64,000 bases of DNA, taken from the NCBI RefSeq assembly GCF_025698545.1, contig NC_068569.1, positions 4,154,001 through 4,218,000 on the forward strand, given 5' to 3'. Numbering within the stretch: the first letter of the stretch is position 1; the number at the start of each line of letters is the position of its first letter. A program made the position numbers and the translations under genes. Positions 13,691 to 48,325 of this stretch are shown in pieces. Under the pieces are notes generated by a model. That model saw only the letters and a program-made list of their open reading frames with translations. It was not told the origin of the DNA and ran no database searches. This DNA comes from Gossypium raimondii. Taxonomy: Eukaryota; Streptophyta; Magnoliopsida; Malvales; Malvaceae.

Positions 13691-14266
13691 TCATTGACTG
13701 CAAATGAACTTGTACTCCTTTTTATCATTGAAATTCTTACAGGTTAGGATTCAGCCATATGAGAAACATGTAAAGGTGAGTTGGGCAGATGTCAAATTGA
13801 ACTAATATCATCATTTTTCTAATTTTCTTTCTTTTAATTTTGGTAGACAATCCTACCATCATTCTCAAAAAAATCAAAGTAATTTTGAGACAACTAAGAA
13901 CTATTAGTAAATTTATATTTTGGTCACTCAACTTCAAAAAGTTACTAAATGGTCATTCAATTATTCAAAACTTTTCATACTCTTAAAATCGTTGTTGCAT
14001 GGTCTTCTCTGTTCGCGCTAATTGTACCAATTGAAAGCTTTTCTTCCCCTTCTCTTCTATAGTTAAGTTTTTTTTTTCCTCAAACAACTTTAAACAGTAA
14101 GAATATGCGAAACAAAATTCAAACAGCTATCTTCTTCGATCTCCGACAGTGACCATTAGATCAACTTAGATCTAAGGTATGTTCTTCTACTCGTTGATGG
14201 GTACTGATCTACTGTACCGTTCATCTAATCGTCACTTGGAGCTCACTACTTGGACTTAAATAAAAA

Positions 14267-16521
14267 TGTAATAACCCAATTTTCAGTGGTGTCGGAAACA
14301 GTGGTTTGAGACCACTAAATCCGACAACTGAGCTCATAAATTTTATTATATAGTGTTTATGAGTCGATTATGAATTTAGGAAGGCTTCTGAATTAGTGAA
14401 TTATGCTTTAAAAATATTTGTTTGATTAATTGGTTTTGAAAACAAGGTATCGAAACCTTAAATTTATAAACCGAGTTGTAAATATTTTTATAAATATTTA
14501 TGGAGTTTCATTAAGGTAGTATTAAAGTTTCGTTAGAAAATTTTAACGTTTTGATAGTTAATTAACTAAAAGGACTAAATTAAAAATATACAAAACTTGC
14601 TAATTAAAGAAATAGTAATTAAATGACTTTATTAATGAACAAAGGAGAACTTAAAGGAGAAATTATGCCTAAAATAAAGGCATGAGGCCGCATAAGCAGA
14701 AAAGAGAACAAAAATCATGTGATTAAAGGGTAAAATTAAAATTTTGTGAAATTAACTTAAACAAATTGAATTCTATACTTTTCTAGGCTATTCTTTTCTA
14801 ATTTTTAGTCCAAAAATTCCATTTAAGGTCCTATAAGCTGGTTTTTCATATTTTTGCATCATGTGAGTTCAATTTTGCTCTTTTCTTGTAATTTTGTGCT
14901 TTTAAGACTTTTACAATTAGGTCCAATTATCTAATTCATTAGTTTTTGATATTATGGGTAATTTTGAAAGTTACCATTGATGAGTTCTGGATTTTATAAT
15001 GAATTAACATGGATTTGAAGCTTTAATTTTGTTATATGATGATTTTATCAAGAAATTTCAATAGAATTTGATTTTAGGACCTAATTATGAAGAAGATTAA
15101 ATCTTAGGGTTTGACATTAAATTATGTTTATCAAATTTTGTGTAATAGCTTATAATATTTAGATAAAGTGTTAGTTGAGAAAAATTAGCTCATTTGATGA
15201 GTTAATTGGTAAGGGACTAAACTGAAAAAATTGTAAAAGTTGGGGTAATTGTGTAATTTTGAAATTTTAAGGGTATAAATTGTGAAGTGGACTGAAATTG
15301 AAATATATGCTAATGAATGAAAAATTTTACATTCTAGATCAATAGCTCGTAGATCAACGAGAAAAAGGGAAATTAGTCGAGTAGTCTCTGAACTATTACC
15401 AATTTTACAATCCAACCCAGGTAAGTTTATATGGTTAAACTTTCTTGATTATTTGTTAACTTAGGAATGGTATAATATATTTATTCATATTTTGTTGTTG
15501 AAATTAAGATTATTGTAAAAGTATGAAAATTGAATTGAATTTTTAAATTGAGTAGAACGCAGGATTGAGTACGATCGTTCCGTGGCAAAGAATGAATTGA
15601 CGGATAAGACCATGGTTGGACCATGGCAATGTTTAAATGTAAGACCATAGCTGGGCTATGACATTTTAATGAAAAGACCATAGTTAGGTTATGGCACCTT
15701 GAACATAAGACCATGGTTGGACCATGGTAGTATAGATACATGTGTAAGACCATACCTGGGCTATGGCATTCTGATGATAAGACCATAACTGGGTTATGGC
15801 ACTACAAATGTAAGACCACGGCAGGGCCATGGCAATGCATGTTTAAGACCATAGTTGGACTATGGCACAAAAAGAACGATGTACTCATATCCGAAGCCGT
15901 TCTTCGATTCAATAAGAAATGGTAAGAGACTTATGTGATTGAATTGAAAGCTTTATAGATTATTATTGATATTGATCTGAAAGAAATGTGTCTATTGATT
16001 ATATTGTATTTGACAGGGAAAAATGTATGATTTATTTACAATTTAATTTATTTTATTATATTAAATTCGGTAAGATCAATGTTTAACCTATTTAACTTAC
16101 TAAGTTTCATTAAGCTTACTCGTGTTGTTTAATGTTCTTGTAGATTAACGTGTAGTTTGAAGATTGAATCAACACATCAAGCTACACTATCTAGTTTAAT
16201 CCGTAGTTTTGCAATATAAATTTTGGTCTATATGGCATGTATAGGGTAGAATTAGCAATGATATAATTTGAAATGCGGTTGTGAATGATATATATATTGT
16301 ATGTATGTTTATGTAATTAGTAGTAGAATTTGATAAATCAATGAAATGAGTTAAATAGGTAGGTATAAGTAAATGAAATATTTTTTATGTTATATCATGT
16401 TGAGAACATGTTTTAGTTAGTATGTGTAACAAAGGTTGGGAAATGTCCGTATTTAATTCGTAAAGTTCGGTAATGCTCTGTAACCCTGTTCCGATAACGG
16501 ATAAGGGTTAGGGGTTTTACA
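14267..16521. mobile_element. Solo LTR, probably Ty3/Gypsy type
   Basis: The segment starts TGTAATAACCC and ends GGGGTTTTACA, giving the TG...CA ends of an LTR and a short inverted terminal match (TGTAA/TTACA). It is flanked by AAAAA on both sides (14262-14266 and 16522-16526), which fits a 5-bp target duplication, though that sequence is low complexity. The length of about 2.25 kb is within the range of large Gypsy LTRs. There is no internal protein-coding region and no second LTR, so it appears to be the product of LTR-LTR recombination. The family is assigned by resemblance from memory to LTRs in cotton genomes. It carries the hairpin array listed separately. Confidence 0.6.
15610..15865. 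repeat. Array of eight 17-nt hairpin repeats at about 33-bp spacing
   Basis: Eight units of form CCAnnnn-TGG-nnnnTGG start at 15610, 15645, 15678, 15711, 15750, 15783, 15816 and 15849. Spacings are 35, 33, 33, 39, 33, 33 and 33. Each unit is two 7-nt arms around a 3-nt loop. The arms differ between units but keep pairing: CCATGGT/ACCATGG, CCATAGC/GCTATG, CCATAAC/GTTATGG and CCATAGT/ACTATGG. Unit 3 pairs with two G-U wobbles, units 5 and 7 each have one mismatch, and unit 2 lacks the last pair. Linkers between units are AT-rich and less conserved. The 33-bp period is a multiple of three, which explains the open frames on both strands here. Confidence 0.85.
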
Positions 16522-16679
16522 AAAAAACTTGCTAATATCTCAGTGGTTTGAATGAAAAATTTTAAATAATTCAGTGACTATTTTGTAATGTTTTGAAGTT
16601 GAATGATCAAAATATAAACTTACTAATAGTTTAGGGACATTGGGTGTAGTTTGCTCTACTTTTTATTAGTATAACAAGT

Positions 16680-19069: not shown

Positions 19070-19930
19070 GTCAATAAATTATATAAGAGTATCCGTTAAG
19101 TTCTAGAAATGATGTTTTTTTCTTGAGTAACACGTTGACTTTCTCAAAGACACTTGGATTTGGCTAAAATTTTCCTTAATCGTTATAGTAATAAAATATT
19201 TAAAAAAATAAAAAGAGACGTATGGTTGTAAAGTAGTGTTGAGCAACTTAACACAAGGTCCAATAGAAGAAAACGATGACTAGAATTTAAGATTTTATAT
19301 TAGAAATTTTGAGTTTTCAAATTTATATGATAGCTATTGTCCGCACCCTCCTAGGTAAAATTTAGATGATGAGAGTCAAACGCATAAAAGGTAACATAGT
19401 TTACTTGTCTCACTCTTCCATAGTTTACTTGTCTCATAGATTACTTGTCTCACTCTTCCATCTTTCTTCCTTTTAATAAGGTTTCAAATACATTCACTGA
19501 AACCCTTAAGAAAACCAAAAGCAATCTACTACCAACCAACACGAACCCAGTCCCACAACAACACCATTTCGCACATACCATAATTCAAACCAGAAAATTT
19601 TACAGGTGTTAATGCCTCAGACATTCAGAGTATTATGTCTATGGCGTCACGATATCACGAGAGAAGAAAAATAATCAAATCCATCCAGAAATGAAAGGCT
19701 GATTCATTTGATGACGATAAGTAGCTGTGGAAATTAATTATAAATATTTTATTGATAGAAAAATAAATATTTTTTTCACAAGTTAGATCGAGTAAAATTG
19801 TAAATAATAAATTGATTTTTAGATAATATTTGAAAAATTACCCAATAAATAGATTTAAATGTAATTATTTATACAATAACATGCTTAAATAATAATTACA
19901 ATTAGTGGATCCCATAGAGTTGAGTGTAAT
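19070..19930. repeat. Tandem duplication, copy 1 (861 bp)
   Basis: The unit runs from GTCAATAAATTATATAAGAG to GAGTTGAGTGTAAT and is followed directly by a second copy that starts GTCGATAAATTATATAAGAG. The two copies match over their whole length with scattered substitutions. The unit holds a short internal repeat (CATAGTTTACTTGTCTC, near 19397). It has no recognisable coding sequence. Confidence 0.9.
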
Positions 19931-20814
19931 GTCGATAAATTATATAAGAGTATCCGTTAGGTTCTAGAAATGATGTTTTTTTCTTGGGTAACACATTGAC
20001 TTTCTCAATGACACTTTAGTTTGGCTAAAATTTTCCTTAACGGTTACAGTAATAAAATATTAAAAAACTAAAAAGAGACGTATGGTTGTAAAAGTAGTGT
20101 TGAGAAACTTAACACAAGGTCCAATAGAAGAAAACAATGACTAGAATTTAATATTTTATATTAGAATTTTTGAGTTTTAAAATTTATATCATAGCTATTG
20201 TCCGCACCCTCCTAAGTAAAATTTAGATGATGAGAGTCAAACGCATAAAAGGTAACATAGTTTACTTGTCTCAATCTTCCATAGTTTACTTGTCTCACTC
20301 TTCCATAGTTTACTTGTCTCATGGTTTACTTGTTTCACTCTTCCATCTTTCTTCCTTTTAATAAGGTTTCAAACACATTCACTGAAACCCTTAAGAAAAC
20401 CAAAAACAATCTACTACCAACCAACACGAACCCAGTCCCACAAGAACACCATTTCGCACATACCATAATTCAAACCAAAAAATTTTACAGGTGTTAATGT
20501 CTTAGACATTCAGAGCATTATGTCTATGGCGTCACGATATTATGAGAGAAGAAAAATAATCAAATCCATCCAGAAATGAAAGGCTGATTCATTTGATGAC
20601 GATAAGTAGTTGTGGAAATTAATTATAAATATTTTATTGATAGAAAAATAATTATTTTTTCACAAGTTAGATCGAGTAAAATTGTAAATAATGAATTGAT
20701 TTTTAGATAATATTTGAAAAGTTACCCAATAATTAGATTTAAATATAATTATTTATACAATAGCATGCTTAAATAATAATTACAATTAGTGAAGCCTATA
20801 GAATTGAGTATAAT
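19931..20814. repeat. Tandem duplication, copy 2 (884 bp)
   Basis: This copy repeats copy 1 to the end motif GAATTGAGTATAAT. It is about 23 bp longer, mainly because the internal TTTACTTGTCTCACTCTTCC block has one more unit (20258-20345). The flanks outside the two copies are unrelated to each other, so the event was a simple tandem duplication. Confidence 0.9.
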
Positions 20815-42770: not shown

Positions 42771-43995
42771 TTGCTTTCTCTTTCTCTCACTCCTACTCTG
42801 CAAACGCGTTCAAAGTTGCTTCTCTTCTTGTGTCAAACCAATACGCTTTCAGGTTAGCAGATTTTTCTGACAACCCAATTTTCTTTTCAAGTTTAATTTC
42901 GTTTGTTTTCTAACCTTGCAATGACCACATTTTGTTTTTGAAGGGGTTTCTGTTTGAAATTAAAATGAGAAACTGGATTTGGGTATTTCGATTTTTATCA
43001 CATCATGTTAAATTTGATGTTTTATTTTTCTTTTTTCTTTTTTATTTCTGTAATTTGCTAAATTGTCGATTTGATTGTTTGGCTGTATGTGATTTAGCAG
43101 AAGATTAAAAGGTTGAATTTGATCTTCTGATTAATAGACACAGGGTTGACAATTAAAGTGAGGCATCATGTTGTTTGTTATGGTCTCTTTAAGGTTATCC
43201 AAGCTTTTACCTAAAACAATGCAAGAAGATGAATTTCATACTACTAGTGATAATTGGAATGGATTCTGTTTTGCATCAATTAGGTATATTTCGTACGGTT
43301 AAATTACGAATCCTCGATTAGGATGTGGAATGTAAGGATAAGGGCAGAAAATGAAGTCTATATAGTATACATGTTCCATAGAATAAGGGTGGATCGTTTC
43401 CATTTTCCTTTGTTATTTTCTACTAAAGAAAAAGAAAAAAAAAGGGTTAAATCACTGTTCTGCTATTAACGATTCTTCAATTTGTTCCGAGAACATGAAG
43501 AAGTTACTCCATAAGTTTCGATTGCATGATACATTCTGTTTCCACCATTGTCGAAGCACAAAGCTCTAACCTTTGAAACTAAAGTATGTAGTTTGTTTCT
43601 CAGTCCAACTTAGTGCTAATGCATTTTCAAAGATACCATGGCTTGAATTAACTTTTTAGTTCCATTATTTGCTCACCTATTATGGGGCACTTAAATGGCT
43701 TGAATTCCATGGGTTGGTAGCAAATTGATGCCTGTAATTTCCCCCTCTGGATAAAATGCTTTTGAGAGGAAATTTACCTAGTATTGTTGCTGAGTATGTT
43801 AGTGTTAATCCACCTAGTCGCTGCGGAGGTTGTTGTAAAAGAAAATTAAGGCTTATTTTCAATTGACTAATATAACAGAAGTCTGTGTGCTGATTTCTTA
43901 ATTTGTTTTCTTTTTCTCTTATGAATATGTTGTGTCTAGTTTTGTTTCAGGAACTTATTGGCTTTCAACCCGAACTGGTTAATTTTCTGAAATAT
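42771..43995 (+). other. RDR6 promoter-proximal region and leader
   Basis: A pyrimidine-rich stretch near 42770-42850 ends with CTTTCAG/GTTAGC, a good donor, and TTTGTTTCAG at about 43941-43950 is a good acceptor. A leader intron of about 1.1 kb is therefore likely, leaving about 45 bp of leader before the ATG. Confidence 0.5.
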
Positions 43996-46900
43996 ATGGA
44001 GTTAGAAGGGAGTGTAAAGGAGACTGTGGTGACACAAGTTAGTGTTGGTGGATTTGACCGACATGTCAAAGCCAGAGATCTGATGAAGTACTTGGAGAAT
44101 GCAGTTGGCGTTGTCTGGAGGTGTAGACTGAAGACCTCATGGACACCACCAGAATCGTATCCTAATTTCGAAATTACTGACACTTCTGTTATCCAAAGAA
44201 AAGATAACTATAAGAAGGTGGAGCCCCATGCCTTTGTTCATTTTGCTTCACCGGAAGCAGTGACTTGGGCTGTGGATGCTGCAGGTCGTACTGAGCTTGC
44301 TTTCAACAATCAGCTGTTGAAGGTTAGTTTGGGGCCTGAGAATCCTTATTACTTGAATCGACGGAGGAGGGACACAGCACCCTTTATGCTACCTGATGTC
44401 TCCCTGGAGATTGGAGCACTGGCTAGTTGCGATGAATTCTTTGTTGGCTGGAGAGGACCTCCTTCTGGTGTTGAGTTTCTTGTGGATCCATTTGATTGTA
44501 CCTGCAAATTTTGTTTCTCCAGAGATACAGCCTTCTCGTTCAAAGGCACAAATGAGCGTGCTGTCATAAAGTGTGACTTTAAGGTTGAATTTCTGGTTAG
44601 GGAGATCAATGAAGTTAAGCAGTATTCAGAACAGACGGGTTTTGTAGTGCTCTTGCAGCTGGCTTCGTCACCTTGGGTCTGGTATAGAACTGCTGATGAC
44701 GACTTTGAAAAATCAGTTCCATTTGATCTGTTGGATGATGATGATCAGTGGATCCGGACCACTGATTTTACTGCAAGTGGAGCTATCGGTCGTTGTAATA
44801 CATACAGAGTCCTAGTCCGTCCTCGTCATGGTTTAAAGCTGAAGAAGGCCATGTATTATCTCAGAGAACGAAGAGTACCAGTGAAAGATCTCAGATCACA
44901 ACTTAGGATCTGTGATGAACCTTATTTTGGGAGGTCCATGTCTGATCACTTCTATTATACTTACAAGGAAGGGATTCCTTTTGAAATAATGTTTTTGGTT
45001 AATGCTGTACTGCATAAAGGCATATTTAATCAGCATCAGCTATCAATGGACTTCTTTAAGCTACTGAGAAATCAATCAATGGAGGTCAATGTGGCTGCAC
45101 TAAGGCACATCTATTCCTCTAGGCATCCAGTGTATGATGCCTATAAGAGGCTGAAAGATGTTCATGATTGGCTGTTGAAGAATCCCAAACTCTTTAGGAG
45201 CCCTCCGCAGTTGGATGATATTGTTGAAATCAGAAGATTGGTCATTACCCCAACCAAAGCTTATTGTCTTCTTCCGGAAGTTGAGCTTTCTAATAGGGTT
45301 CTCAGGAAATATAAAGATGTTGCTGATCGGTTTTTAAGGGTCACATTTATGGATGAAGGCATGCAGACAATGAATGCAAATGTGCTCACTTACTATAATG
45401 CCGCAATTGTAAGGGATGTGACGTCTACCTCTTTTTCTCAGAAAACGGGAGTATTCAAAAGGGTAAAGTCTATTCTAACAGATGGATTTTACTTGTGTGG
45501 TCGCAAATACTCTTTCCTTGCTTTCTCAGCCAATCAATTGAGAGACCGCTCTGCATGGTTTTTCGCTGAAGATGGGAAGATAAATGTGCTTCAAATTATA
45601 GGTTGGATGGGGAAGTTTGCAAACCGGAATATTGCTAAATGTGCTGCCAGGATGGGTCAGTGCTTCTCGTCAACGTACGCAACAGTGGAAGTTCCTTCAG
45701 GACAGGTTAACATGCACCTTCCAGATATACAGAGGAATGGATATGATTTCTCTGATGGGATTGGCAAGATCACTCCCGATCTTGCAATGGAAGTTGCTCA
45801 GAAATTGAAGCTGGACTTGAATCCTCCTTGCGCTTATCAAATTAGATATGCTGGTTGTAAAGGGGTCGTGGCTTGTTGGCCGGAAGAAGGTGATGGGATC
45901 CGTCTTTCTTTACGGTCCAGTATGATTAAGTTCTTTTCTCACCACACAACACTGGAAATCTGTTCTTGGACAAGATTTCAGCCTGGCTTCCTGAATAGGC
46001 AAATTATTACATTGCTTTCAACACTAGGTGTGCCTGACAAAGTATTTTGGGGAATGCAAAAGTCCATGGTTTCTAAGTTGGACAAAGTCCTTGTGGACAC
46101 TGATGCAGCATTTGAAGTCGTTATTTCATCATGTGGTGAGCAAGGGCATACTCCAGCAATAATGTTGAGTGCAGGTTTCAAGCCTCAAACAGAACCTCAT
46201 TTACGAGGAATGTTGACTTGTGTGAGAGCATCTCAACTTTGGGGCCTTAGGGAAAAATCTAGGATTTTTATTCATTCAGGCAGATGGTTAATGGGCGTTT
46301 TGGATGAACTAGGTGTACTTGAACAAGGTCAGTGCTTTATCCAAGTGTCAAATCCATCTCTACAAAACTGCTTCCTTAAACATGGTTCTAGGTTTGCTGA
46401 AACAAAGAAAAATTTTGAAGTAATTAAGGGGCTGGTTGTCATAGCTAAGAATCCTTGTCTTCACCCTGGAGATGTAAGAATTCTAGAAGCAGTTGATGCC
46501 CCTGGTTTACACCATTTGTATGACTGTCTGGTCTTCCCTCAAAAGGGTGAGAGACCCCATACGAATGAAGCTTCTGGAAGTGATCTTGATGGGGACCTTT
46601 ATTTTGTCACATGGGAAGAGGCTCTTATCCCCCCTAGCAAGAAAAGCTCACAACCCATGCAGTATAACCCTGATGAGCCTCGGGAGTTGCATCGCCCAGT
46701 CACTCATAAGGTAACTGTTTGTTCTGTTTTATTATTATCATTGAACTTTTATGAACCTGTGGTTTTCCAGAATTGTTTTTCTCTTATTTCCTTTTTTCCA
46801 ATTGGCGAATTTCCAGAATTTTTTTTTAATTTCCTTATTCTCAATTGCAAAATATAAGTACCAGCACTTCTTAATAAAACCAACAATTTGTTCCTACAAA

Positions 46901-48325
46901 ACAGTATTGTTTTCTAGTATGGTACTTGGAAGCTAGTATTGAAAGGAATGTTTCTATCATAGACATGCATGTTTGAGCGCCTAACTATCTGTTTTAATGT
47001 TATTATTCTTTTATGGTTATATAACCGGCTGTCTTAATGTTGTAATGGCACTATGTTGTTGGGTTGAAACCTGATTGACAGACTGTTTTTGAAATGGTTT
47101 TTCTTGTCACTGGTAACTGTTTGTGTTGCTATAATTTCCATAGGGCAATGAGAAAAACTGTGGCGGTAACACTAGGAAGTTCTCAAGTATAACATATTAA
47201 TAAAACAGGAAAAGCGGGTTTTGGATTTATATCATGGTGAATACCTTATTATAATTTCCTAGTGTGCTAAAGAGGAAAAGAATCCTCAAATGGTAGAAAC
47301 TGGAGCACAATCGTGGGAATATAATCTTGTATACAATATATCAAAAAGGGGGGTCATCAGTTTATATTCTGATGAATGAACTATTTTTAAGTTCCAAGTA
47401 GGTGAAAGACATAATCTTTTGACTCTTTTGTTTCACATTTACTCTACAGGACATAATTGAGTTTTTTTCAAAAAACATGGTGAATGAGCACCTGGGAAGT
47501 ATCTGCAATGCACATGTGGTTCATTCTGACCTTAGTGACCATGGTGCTTCAGATGAGAAATGTATACATCTCGCAGAGTTAGCGGCTATAGCTGTTGATT
47601 TTCCTAAAACCGGGAAGATTGTGTCGATGCCTGCTCACTTAAAACCACAACTTTACCCAGATTTTATGGGTAAAGAGGAGTTCCAGTCATACAAGTCAAA
47701 CAAAATTCTGGGAAGACTATATCGTGATATCAAAGATGCGTATGACGAAGATGTCTCTGAATCTTCTGGGCTCAATTTTTGTGCTAGTGACATCAATTAT
47801 GATGCAGATCTTGAAATTACAGGATCCGCTGACTACATAGCTGATGCATGGGCTAAAAAGTGCTCCTATGACGGGCAGCTGATTGGACTACTTAAACAGT
47901 ACAAAGTTAAGAGGGAAGAGGAGGTCGTAACTGGCCAAATCTGGTCCATGCCCAAATATGCCAGTAAGAAACTAGGGGATTTGAAGGAGAAGCTTGGTCA
48001 TTCTTATGGTTCCCTCAGGAAAGAATTCAGACAACTTTTTGAGAACATGGATTCCGACTTTGAGCAGCTCAATGAGGATGAGAAGAACAAGTTGTATGAA
48101 AGAAAGGCTTCAGCATGGTACCAGGTCACTTACCATCCTGAATGGGTTCAGAAGACGTTAGAGTTCCAGAAGCCTGATGGTGATGAAGGTGTTGTGATGT
48201 TAAGCTTTGCTTGGATTGCTGCTGATTACCTAGCTCGAATAAAAGTTAGGCACCAGGGCACTGAAAATCTTGACTTTGCTAAGCCTGTCAACTCTCTAGT
48301 AAGGTACCTAGCCGATCGAATATAA
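43996..48325 (+). CDS. RDR6: RNA-dependent RNA polymerase 6
   Basis: Two exons (43996-46710 and 47450-48325) join in phase to give 1196 residues, the same length I recall for Arabidopsis RDR6, with a single intron. The N-terminus (KETVVTQVSVGGF, VGVVWRCRLKTSWTPPESYP) and many blocks (KVEPHAFVHF, TDFTASGAIGRC, SQKTGVFKRVKSILTDGF, FSDGIGKITPDLA) match RDR6 rather than RDR1 or RDR2. The catalytic DLDGD motif is at residues 863-867 within NEASGSDLDGDLYFV. RDR6 copies cleaved or aberrant RNA into dsRNA for trans-acting siRNA and sense-transgene silencing, with SGS3 and DCL4. The reading frame stays open for 31 codons upstream, but that crosses the probable leader-intron acceptor, so the ATG at 43996 is preferred. 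The gene looks intact. Confidence 0.96.

Follow-up and report, generated by a model that had tools for sequence, protein, structure and literature searches.

What keeps an array of hairpins in shape inside a plant LTR: its action as DNA, its action as RNA, or mutation and duplication alone? LTRs align poorly and their repeats are easily dismissed as filler, so to speak, of the element. If a module proved better conserved than the spacers around it, this would point to a functional signal in the LTR, and one that is testable where the family has many copies. We addressed the question at one array in a 64-kb window (the whole stretch of DNA analysed). The initial annotation of this window described eight 17-nt units, each with a 7-nt arm, a 3-nt loop and a 7-nt arm, at 15610-15865 within a solo LTR, and all eight were found at exactly these coordinates (Table 1).

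Table 1. Positions of the LTR-like segment, the hairpin array, its super-repeat and its eight units in the window.
Feature	Position	Strand	Description
LTR-like segment	14267..16521	+	2,255 bp; TGTAATAACCC...GGGGTTTTACA; AAAAA flank on both sides
Three-unit super-repeat	15604..15867	+	ABC-ABC-AB; self-blastn and Tandem Repeats Finder
Array	15606..15867	+	eight 23-nt modules AAGA-CCATnnn-TGG-nnnATGG-CA
Unit 1, class A	15610..15626	+	CCATGGT-TGG-ACCATGG; Watson-Crick 7/7
Unit 2, class B	15645..15661	+	CCATAGC-TGG-GCTATGA; 6/7, C.A at the stem base
Unit 3, class C	15678..15694	+	CCATAGT-TAG-GTTATGG; two G-T and five Watson-Crick pairs
Unit 4, class A	15711..15727	+	same hairpin as unit 1; 7/7
Unit 5, class B	15750..15766	+	CCATACC-TGG-GCTATGG; 6/7, C.C mismatch
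Unit 6, class C	15783..15799	+	CCATAAC-TGG-GTTATGG; 7/7
Unit 7, class A	15816..15832	+	CCACGGC-AGG-GCCATGG; 6/7, C.A mismatch
Unit 8, class B	15849..15865	+	CCATAGT-TGG-ACTATGG; 7/7

The window has the appearance of plant nuclear DNA. A domain scan of six open reading frames (ORFs) found that they encode a DYW-type PPR protein, an RDR6-like RNA-dependent RNA polymerase, a phospholipase D-like protein, and Transferase-family (presumably BAHD), legume-lectin domain and triose-phosphate-transporter-family proteins. The RDR6-like polymerase lies at 43894-48325, with RdRP, RDR6_2nd and RBD_RDR6 domains in the ORF at 43894-46857; the following ORF (47423-48325) resembles, by eye, its continuation. 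The segment that hosts the array combines TG...CA ends with a short target-site duplication, as expected of a solo LTR. The duplication is weak evidence because the AAAAA flanks are of low complexity. Self-blastn of the LTR (E up to 0.01) detected no second LTR in the 64-kb window; the array's own repeats aside, its two matches spanned 52 and 36 columns. The segment was therefore read as a solo LTR, and its origin from a plant LTR retrotransposon is plausible. We take it to resemble the Ty3/gypsy Tekay LTRs of cotton, with the + strand presumably the sense strand. TATA-like motifs on the + strand flank the array, upstream at 14489 and 15274 and downstream at 16215, 16289 and 16291.

The spacing had been given as about 33 bp. 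Measured from start to start, it is 35, 33, 33, 39, 33, 33 and 33 bp, that is, exactly 33 bp in five of the seven steps, with 35 and 39 bp in the other two. The arm pairs quoted earlier (TGGT/ACCA, TAGC/GCTA, TAAC/GTTA and TAGT/ACTA) are all present, as is the wobble pairing of unit 3, with its two G-T pairs. That every arm variant keeps its complementarity is true of most positions: 51 of the 56 arm pairs are Watson-Crick and two are the G-T pairs of unit 3, but mismatches in three of the eight units (2, 5 and 7; 3/56 pairs) had been omitted. The AAGA flank is invariant in all eight units, and the loop carries T in 7/8, G in 7/8 and G in 8/8 units at its three positions, with variants restricted to units 3 and 7. 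The lower stem and loop are thus nearly invariant, and the upper stem is variable but paired. Read as half-sites, 15 of the 16 arms start with RYY and 13 carry the full RYYATGG. At the inner pairs, arms match their own partner in 21/24 positions, compared with 83/168 for arms of different units and 7/21 for a 3' arm against the 5' arm of the next unit. This preference is an average only, since for units 3 and 5 there are foreign arms that match equally well or better. The number of stems is a different matter. The 64 kb contain 21 perfect 7-3-7 stems, four of them array units, and stems with at least six pairs number, per 260 nt, eight near 29.9 kb and seven near 20.9 kb (83-90% AT), as against seven in the array. 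Because AT-rich stretches are equally dense, stem count alone was dropped as evidence; what is unusual in the array is its register and its sequence conservation.

The strongest functional sign in the data is the contrast between module and spacers. On the unit tree, 15 changes fall in the 23 columns of the module, compared with 26 in 10 columns of upstream spacer and 31 in 10 columns of downstream spacer. Column permutations were as extreme in 1 (upstream) and 0 (downstream) of 50,000 cases. The two spacer sets are not independent, as most bases recur in both, allotted to adjacent units, and the alignment was anchored on the core, which somewhat inflates core conservation. Between unit classes (16 unit pairs, units 2-8), core identity is 0.79 against 0.49 for the gapped spacers; within classes (5 pairs) the values are 0.86 and 0.54. 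Residual kinship of the spacers is weak, the upstream identity being reached by 2 and the downstream identity by 80 of 2,000 shuffles. Like the array itself, its super-period and the pair counts, this contrast is an observed property of the sequence.

The classes follow from a longer periodicity. Self-blastn aligned 15604-15768 with 15705-15867 (76% over 169 columns), and Tandem Repeats Finder reported a period of 105 with 2.3 copies, giving a super-period of about 101-105 bp and the classes A (units 1/4/7), B (2/5/8) and C (3/6). Part of the arm diversity was therefore copied in blocks. With core and flanks together, 2 of 10,395 trees are most parsimonious; with the core alone 84 trees tie, so the unit tree is weakly resolved. 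The printed best tree groups units 2/5/8 and units 3/6 and leaves 1, 4 and 7 outside, in agreement with the super-repeat classes. On both best trees, column pair 9/17 has one change per side, pair 11/15 three changes on the left and two on the right, and pair 10/16 two on the left and one on the right.

We favour, with a probability of about 0.4, a reading from sequence features in which the array is a multi-copy palindromic protein-binding DNA element of the LTR-enhancer type, selected while the element was active. A 23-nt palindromic cis-element, carried in units of ~33 bp, would have been duplicated in blocks of three within the retrotransposon LTR, and selection would have kept the module as a multi-copy binding site during the activity of the element as the spacers drifted. 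The candidate half-site is RYYATGG, on either side of a TGG centre and with the asymmetric flanks AAGA and CA; the units would be dyad-symmetric protein-binding sites in DNA, with an RNA hairpin as the main functional alternative. Paired arm differences between classes would predate the block duplications, those of units 7 and 8 would be later, and one-sided pair breaks may most simply be decay after insertion. Selection, protein binding, the enhancer role and this timing are what we infer from several features that support a cis-element: the module-spacer contrast, the invariant AAGA, the 33-bp regularity and the RYY half-sites, together with the better match of arms to their own partners, the agreement of classes and tree, and the precedent of U3 repeats. 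For a dimer site, half-sites that match are enough and covariation is not required; covariation, if real, would better fit RNA pairing or arm copying. The CArG box (CC[AT]6GG), the sole named binding site compared, matches 0 of the 8 units, and an array of CArG boxes was rejected.

Whether the arms change together was assessed against several null models. A comparison with a shuffled null had been proposed in the initial annotation; for this array alone, it singles out three of five measures. None of 500 shuffles reached the observed percentage paired (standard pairs make up 94.6% of arm cells), the number of two-sided changed cells or the covariation score, but 49 reached the count of pairs with two-sided changes and 396 the number of pair types, neither of which is exceptional. 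Exact permutation of the 3' arms reached the observed Watson-Crick count in 48 of 40,320 cases, or 24 of 5,040 with unit 4 dropped. A neutral coalescent that starts with a single palindrome, accepting 4,000 runs for each transition bias, gave P for the Watson-Crick count of 0, 0 and 0.0005 at transition biases of 2, 6 and 20; P was up to 0.006 with G-T counted as paired, and pair types gave 0.01-0.11. With the tree held fixed (two trees, 3,000 runs for each), the corresponding ranges were 0 to 0.0013, 0.0003 to 0.027 and 0.06 to 0.33. Conditioning on the per-branch change counts (40,000 runs each) gave P values as low as 0, with low bias and all 14 sites free to change, the highest being 0.065 and 0.084 (two trees) for the inner six sites with transitions only. 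Within classes alone, P for units 7 and 8 both being compensated was 0.004 to 0.08. The tree, the per-branch counts and the tests all draw on the same few sites, and the sample is one array copy with eight units, two of which have an identical hairpin. Arm covariation is thus suggestive, with P from below 0.001 to 0.084 depending on the null, and not proven from one locus.

The individual steps between units were also compared. Thirteen of the 28 unit pairs differ at two or fewer inner arm positions: seven by one clean base-pair replacement, five in ways related to unpaired or mismatched positions, while the remaining pair, units 1 and 4, has identical inner arms. All seven clean paired steps are pairs of transitions, and they involve single base pairs, not tracts.

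These results bear on the possibility, which we consider a real one, that mutation alone produced a functionless array. A few palindromic ancestors would have been block-duplicated and then have undergone transition-biased decay with occasional copying of one arm onto the other, by template switching at quasi-palindromes in replication or reverse transcription. The three-unit super-repeat accounts for much of the arm diversity, the clean steps are transitions throughout, and, among the runs conditioned on per-branch change counts, P is highest when the inner six sites alone mutate and by transitions only. Against this, under a deamination-only coalescent (300,000 runs, of which 3,772 were accepted) a number of one-sided pairs this small has P = 0.007, and neither the regular spacing nor the retention of AAGA, CCAT, ATGG and CA beside near-random spacers is explained by mutation. 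Template-switch hairpins resemble this explanation in that an arm is copied onto an arm without selection (PMC8794818). In the rRNA data of that study, 94.7% of compensatory cases are described as isolated, and as such they say nothing on how the mutations arose; the clean steps of the array, as isolated single base pairs, are of this kind. Single base pairs in place of tracts also count against arm copying. The informative footprints described there (PMC8794818) are inversion, changes in the loop, or more than one compensatory change in a single event, and none was seen among the seven clean paired steps, for which the inner arms were examined. Block duplication of a few palindromes had been named beforehand as an outcome that would refute the reading of arms that change together; the classes 1/4/7, 2/5/8 and 3/6 do explain much, but paired changes remain. 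Likewise, the statement that neutral decay of a tandem repeat is unlikely gains from the module-spacer contrast and the own-arm match, and is weakened by block duplication and by P values of up to 0.084. Overall, the initial annotation is partly confirmed in what it observed and partly supported in how it interpreted it.

Selection on hairpins in the transcript, in a leader or at the 3' end, for example for Gag binding, packaging or translation, appears unlikely. The lower stem and UGG loop would then be sequence-specific and the upper stem structure-only, an arrangement to which we would assign the same low likelihood. It would account for the covariation score absent from all shuffles and for the high proportion of standard pairs, for a lower stem and loop that are nearly fixed beneath a variable upper stem that stays paired, and for paired steps that are all transitions, as G-U intermediates would give. 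The RYY start of 15/16 half-sites is equally compatible with a degenerate dimer site and with pairing under a transition bias. Folding predictions point both ways. The 273-nt region folds better than shuffled sequences on both strands (z -5.2 on +, -5.9 on -), but in 150-nt array windows z is less extreme, ranging on + from -0.6 to -1.9 and on - from -1.9 to -4.3. The predicted + ensemble favours pairing between units, and local hairpins are not dominant in it, with mean local pairing probabilities of 0-0.03 in units 1-6, 0.42 in unit 7 and 0.91 in unit 8; on the - strand they are 0 in units 5 and 6 and 0.27-0.88 in the others. As single-stranded DNA, the array region also beats shuffles (z -3.6). 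As an argument for RNA folding, the G-U wobbles fail: of the five non-Watson-Crick cells, two (both in unit 3) read as G-T on + and C-A on -, and two others (in units 2 and 7) the other way round. With two such cells on each strand, wobbles are uninformative on strand or RNA folding.

An Rfam search of 14200-16600 (E up to 1) gave no match at gathering score and none within the array, which also speaks against structured RNA; a known RNA family was rejected on this basis. The single sub-threshold hit, at 14287-14325, lies outside the array. A bolder form of RNA signal, a multi-hairpin packaging or dimerisation structure in the LTR of an active plant retrotransposon lineage, is quite improbable in our judgement, and so is its proposed division into fixed elements for recognition (AAGA, the lower stem, the UGG loop and CA) and an upper stem that changes only pairwise. 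That the self-complementary units are dimer-linkage sites between two genomic RNAs is very improbable: the homodimer is predicted to be more stable than two monomers in 8/8 units on both strands, but this is expected of almost any palindrome, and the transcript strand is itself inferred.

Several further candidates were rejected. Dicer would be expected to need stems longer than 7 bp, which makes small-RNA production unlikely, and small-RNA hairpins were set aside on stem length; stems of this length also make cruciform DNA unlikely. A coding gene was considered, as 33 bp correspond to 11 codons and the third + frame repeats a KT.xGLWH-like peptide. This frame has stops in units 2 and 4, two minus-strand frames over the array have several stops and the third is open but for a single stop, and the variation is spread over all codon positions; the coding reading was rejected. 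Pattern scans of IMG/VR and GTDB genomes for relatives of the array gave 66 loci (1, 62, 0 and 3) and no plant relative. One of them (L040) has a single motif with three inner positions paired, none has two such motifs, and all 66 were taken as chance. A literature search with exact unit strings gave no relevant match, with one 13-letter string alone found, in three human-genetics papers.

The BII box goes with the U3 repeats of tobacco Tnt1. Tandem repeats in the U3 of LTRs, including Tnt1, are described as having a possible role in transcription control (PMC3601003). The array is similar in having several short tandem copies in a plant LTR with candidate transcription control, and differs from the repeats as described there in its near-perfect 7-3-7 palindrome with class-specific matching arms. 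Short repeated hairpin elements, sometimes in tandem, are reported from sponge mitochondria, in two types a few complementary substitutions apart (PMC2800124). The likeness lies in short repeated hairpins with complementary differences; however, the sponge elements are mitochondrial, lie in several intergenic regions and genes and have variable loops according to that account, whereas the array is a single nuclear LTR array with near-fixed spacing and conserved loop and flanks. A possible parallel for structured RNA on a plant retroelement is offered by retrozymes, which are non-autonomous plant retrotransposons that carry hammerhead ribozymes (PMC4918200, PMC11722881); unlike them, judging from these descriptions, the array has stems of 7 bp, and the Rfam search over the same interval as above gave no ribozyme match.

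In Gossypium, ICRd is a tandem repeat region of plant LTR retrotransposons with a 133-bp unit, adjoining a conserved sequence of ~860 bp that its authors consider neither LTR nor coding (PMC6944119). It was rejected as the identity of the array, being a different repeat whose description contains neither "palindrom*" nor "hairpin*" in the main text. The main text of a 2025 cotton LTR study lacks the terms hairpin, motif and tandem repeat (PMC12557855). Reports on insertion preference for palindromes (PMC6911290) and on satellites from transposons (PMC12628747) have, as far as their accessible content goes, no bearing on the array. Judged by title or abstract start among the matches listed, with few subscription journals covered, no such array in a plant LTR was found; nor was a covarying structured LTR signal, retrozymes being nearest. 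If the arms covary in intact copies of the family, this would be a structured signal of a kind absent, for a plant LTR, from the matches listed.

Other features were noted along the way. The 5' end of the LTR contains a nested hairpin fold at 14282-14332 (-24.5 kcal/mol for 14275-14345), and the window 14267-14416 folds with z -3.7 on + and -4.8 on -, which is stronger than the three 150-nt array windows on either strand. Upstream of the array, a consensus-like 5' splice donor (CAG/GTAAGT) is present on + at 15418-15426 and holds the only GTAAGT on that strand of the LTR. Outside the LTR, tandem repeats of 24 and 16 bp that have CATAGTTTACTTGTCT in common occupy 20256-20337, and a related 16-bp array is found at 19419-19452.
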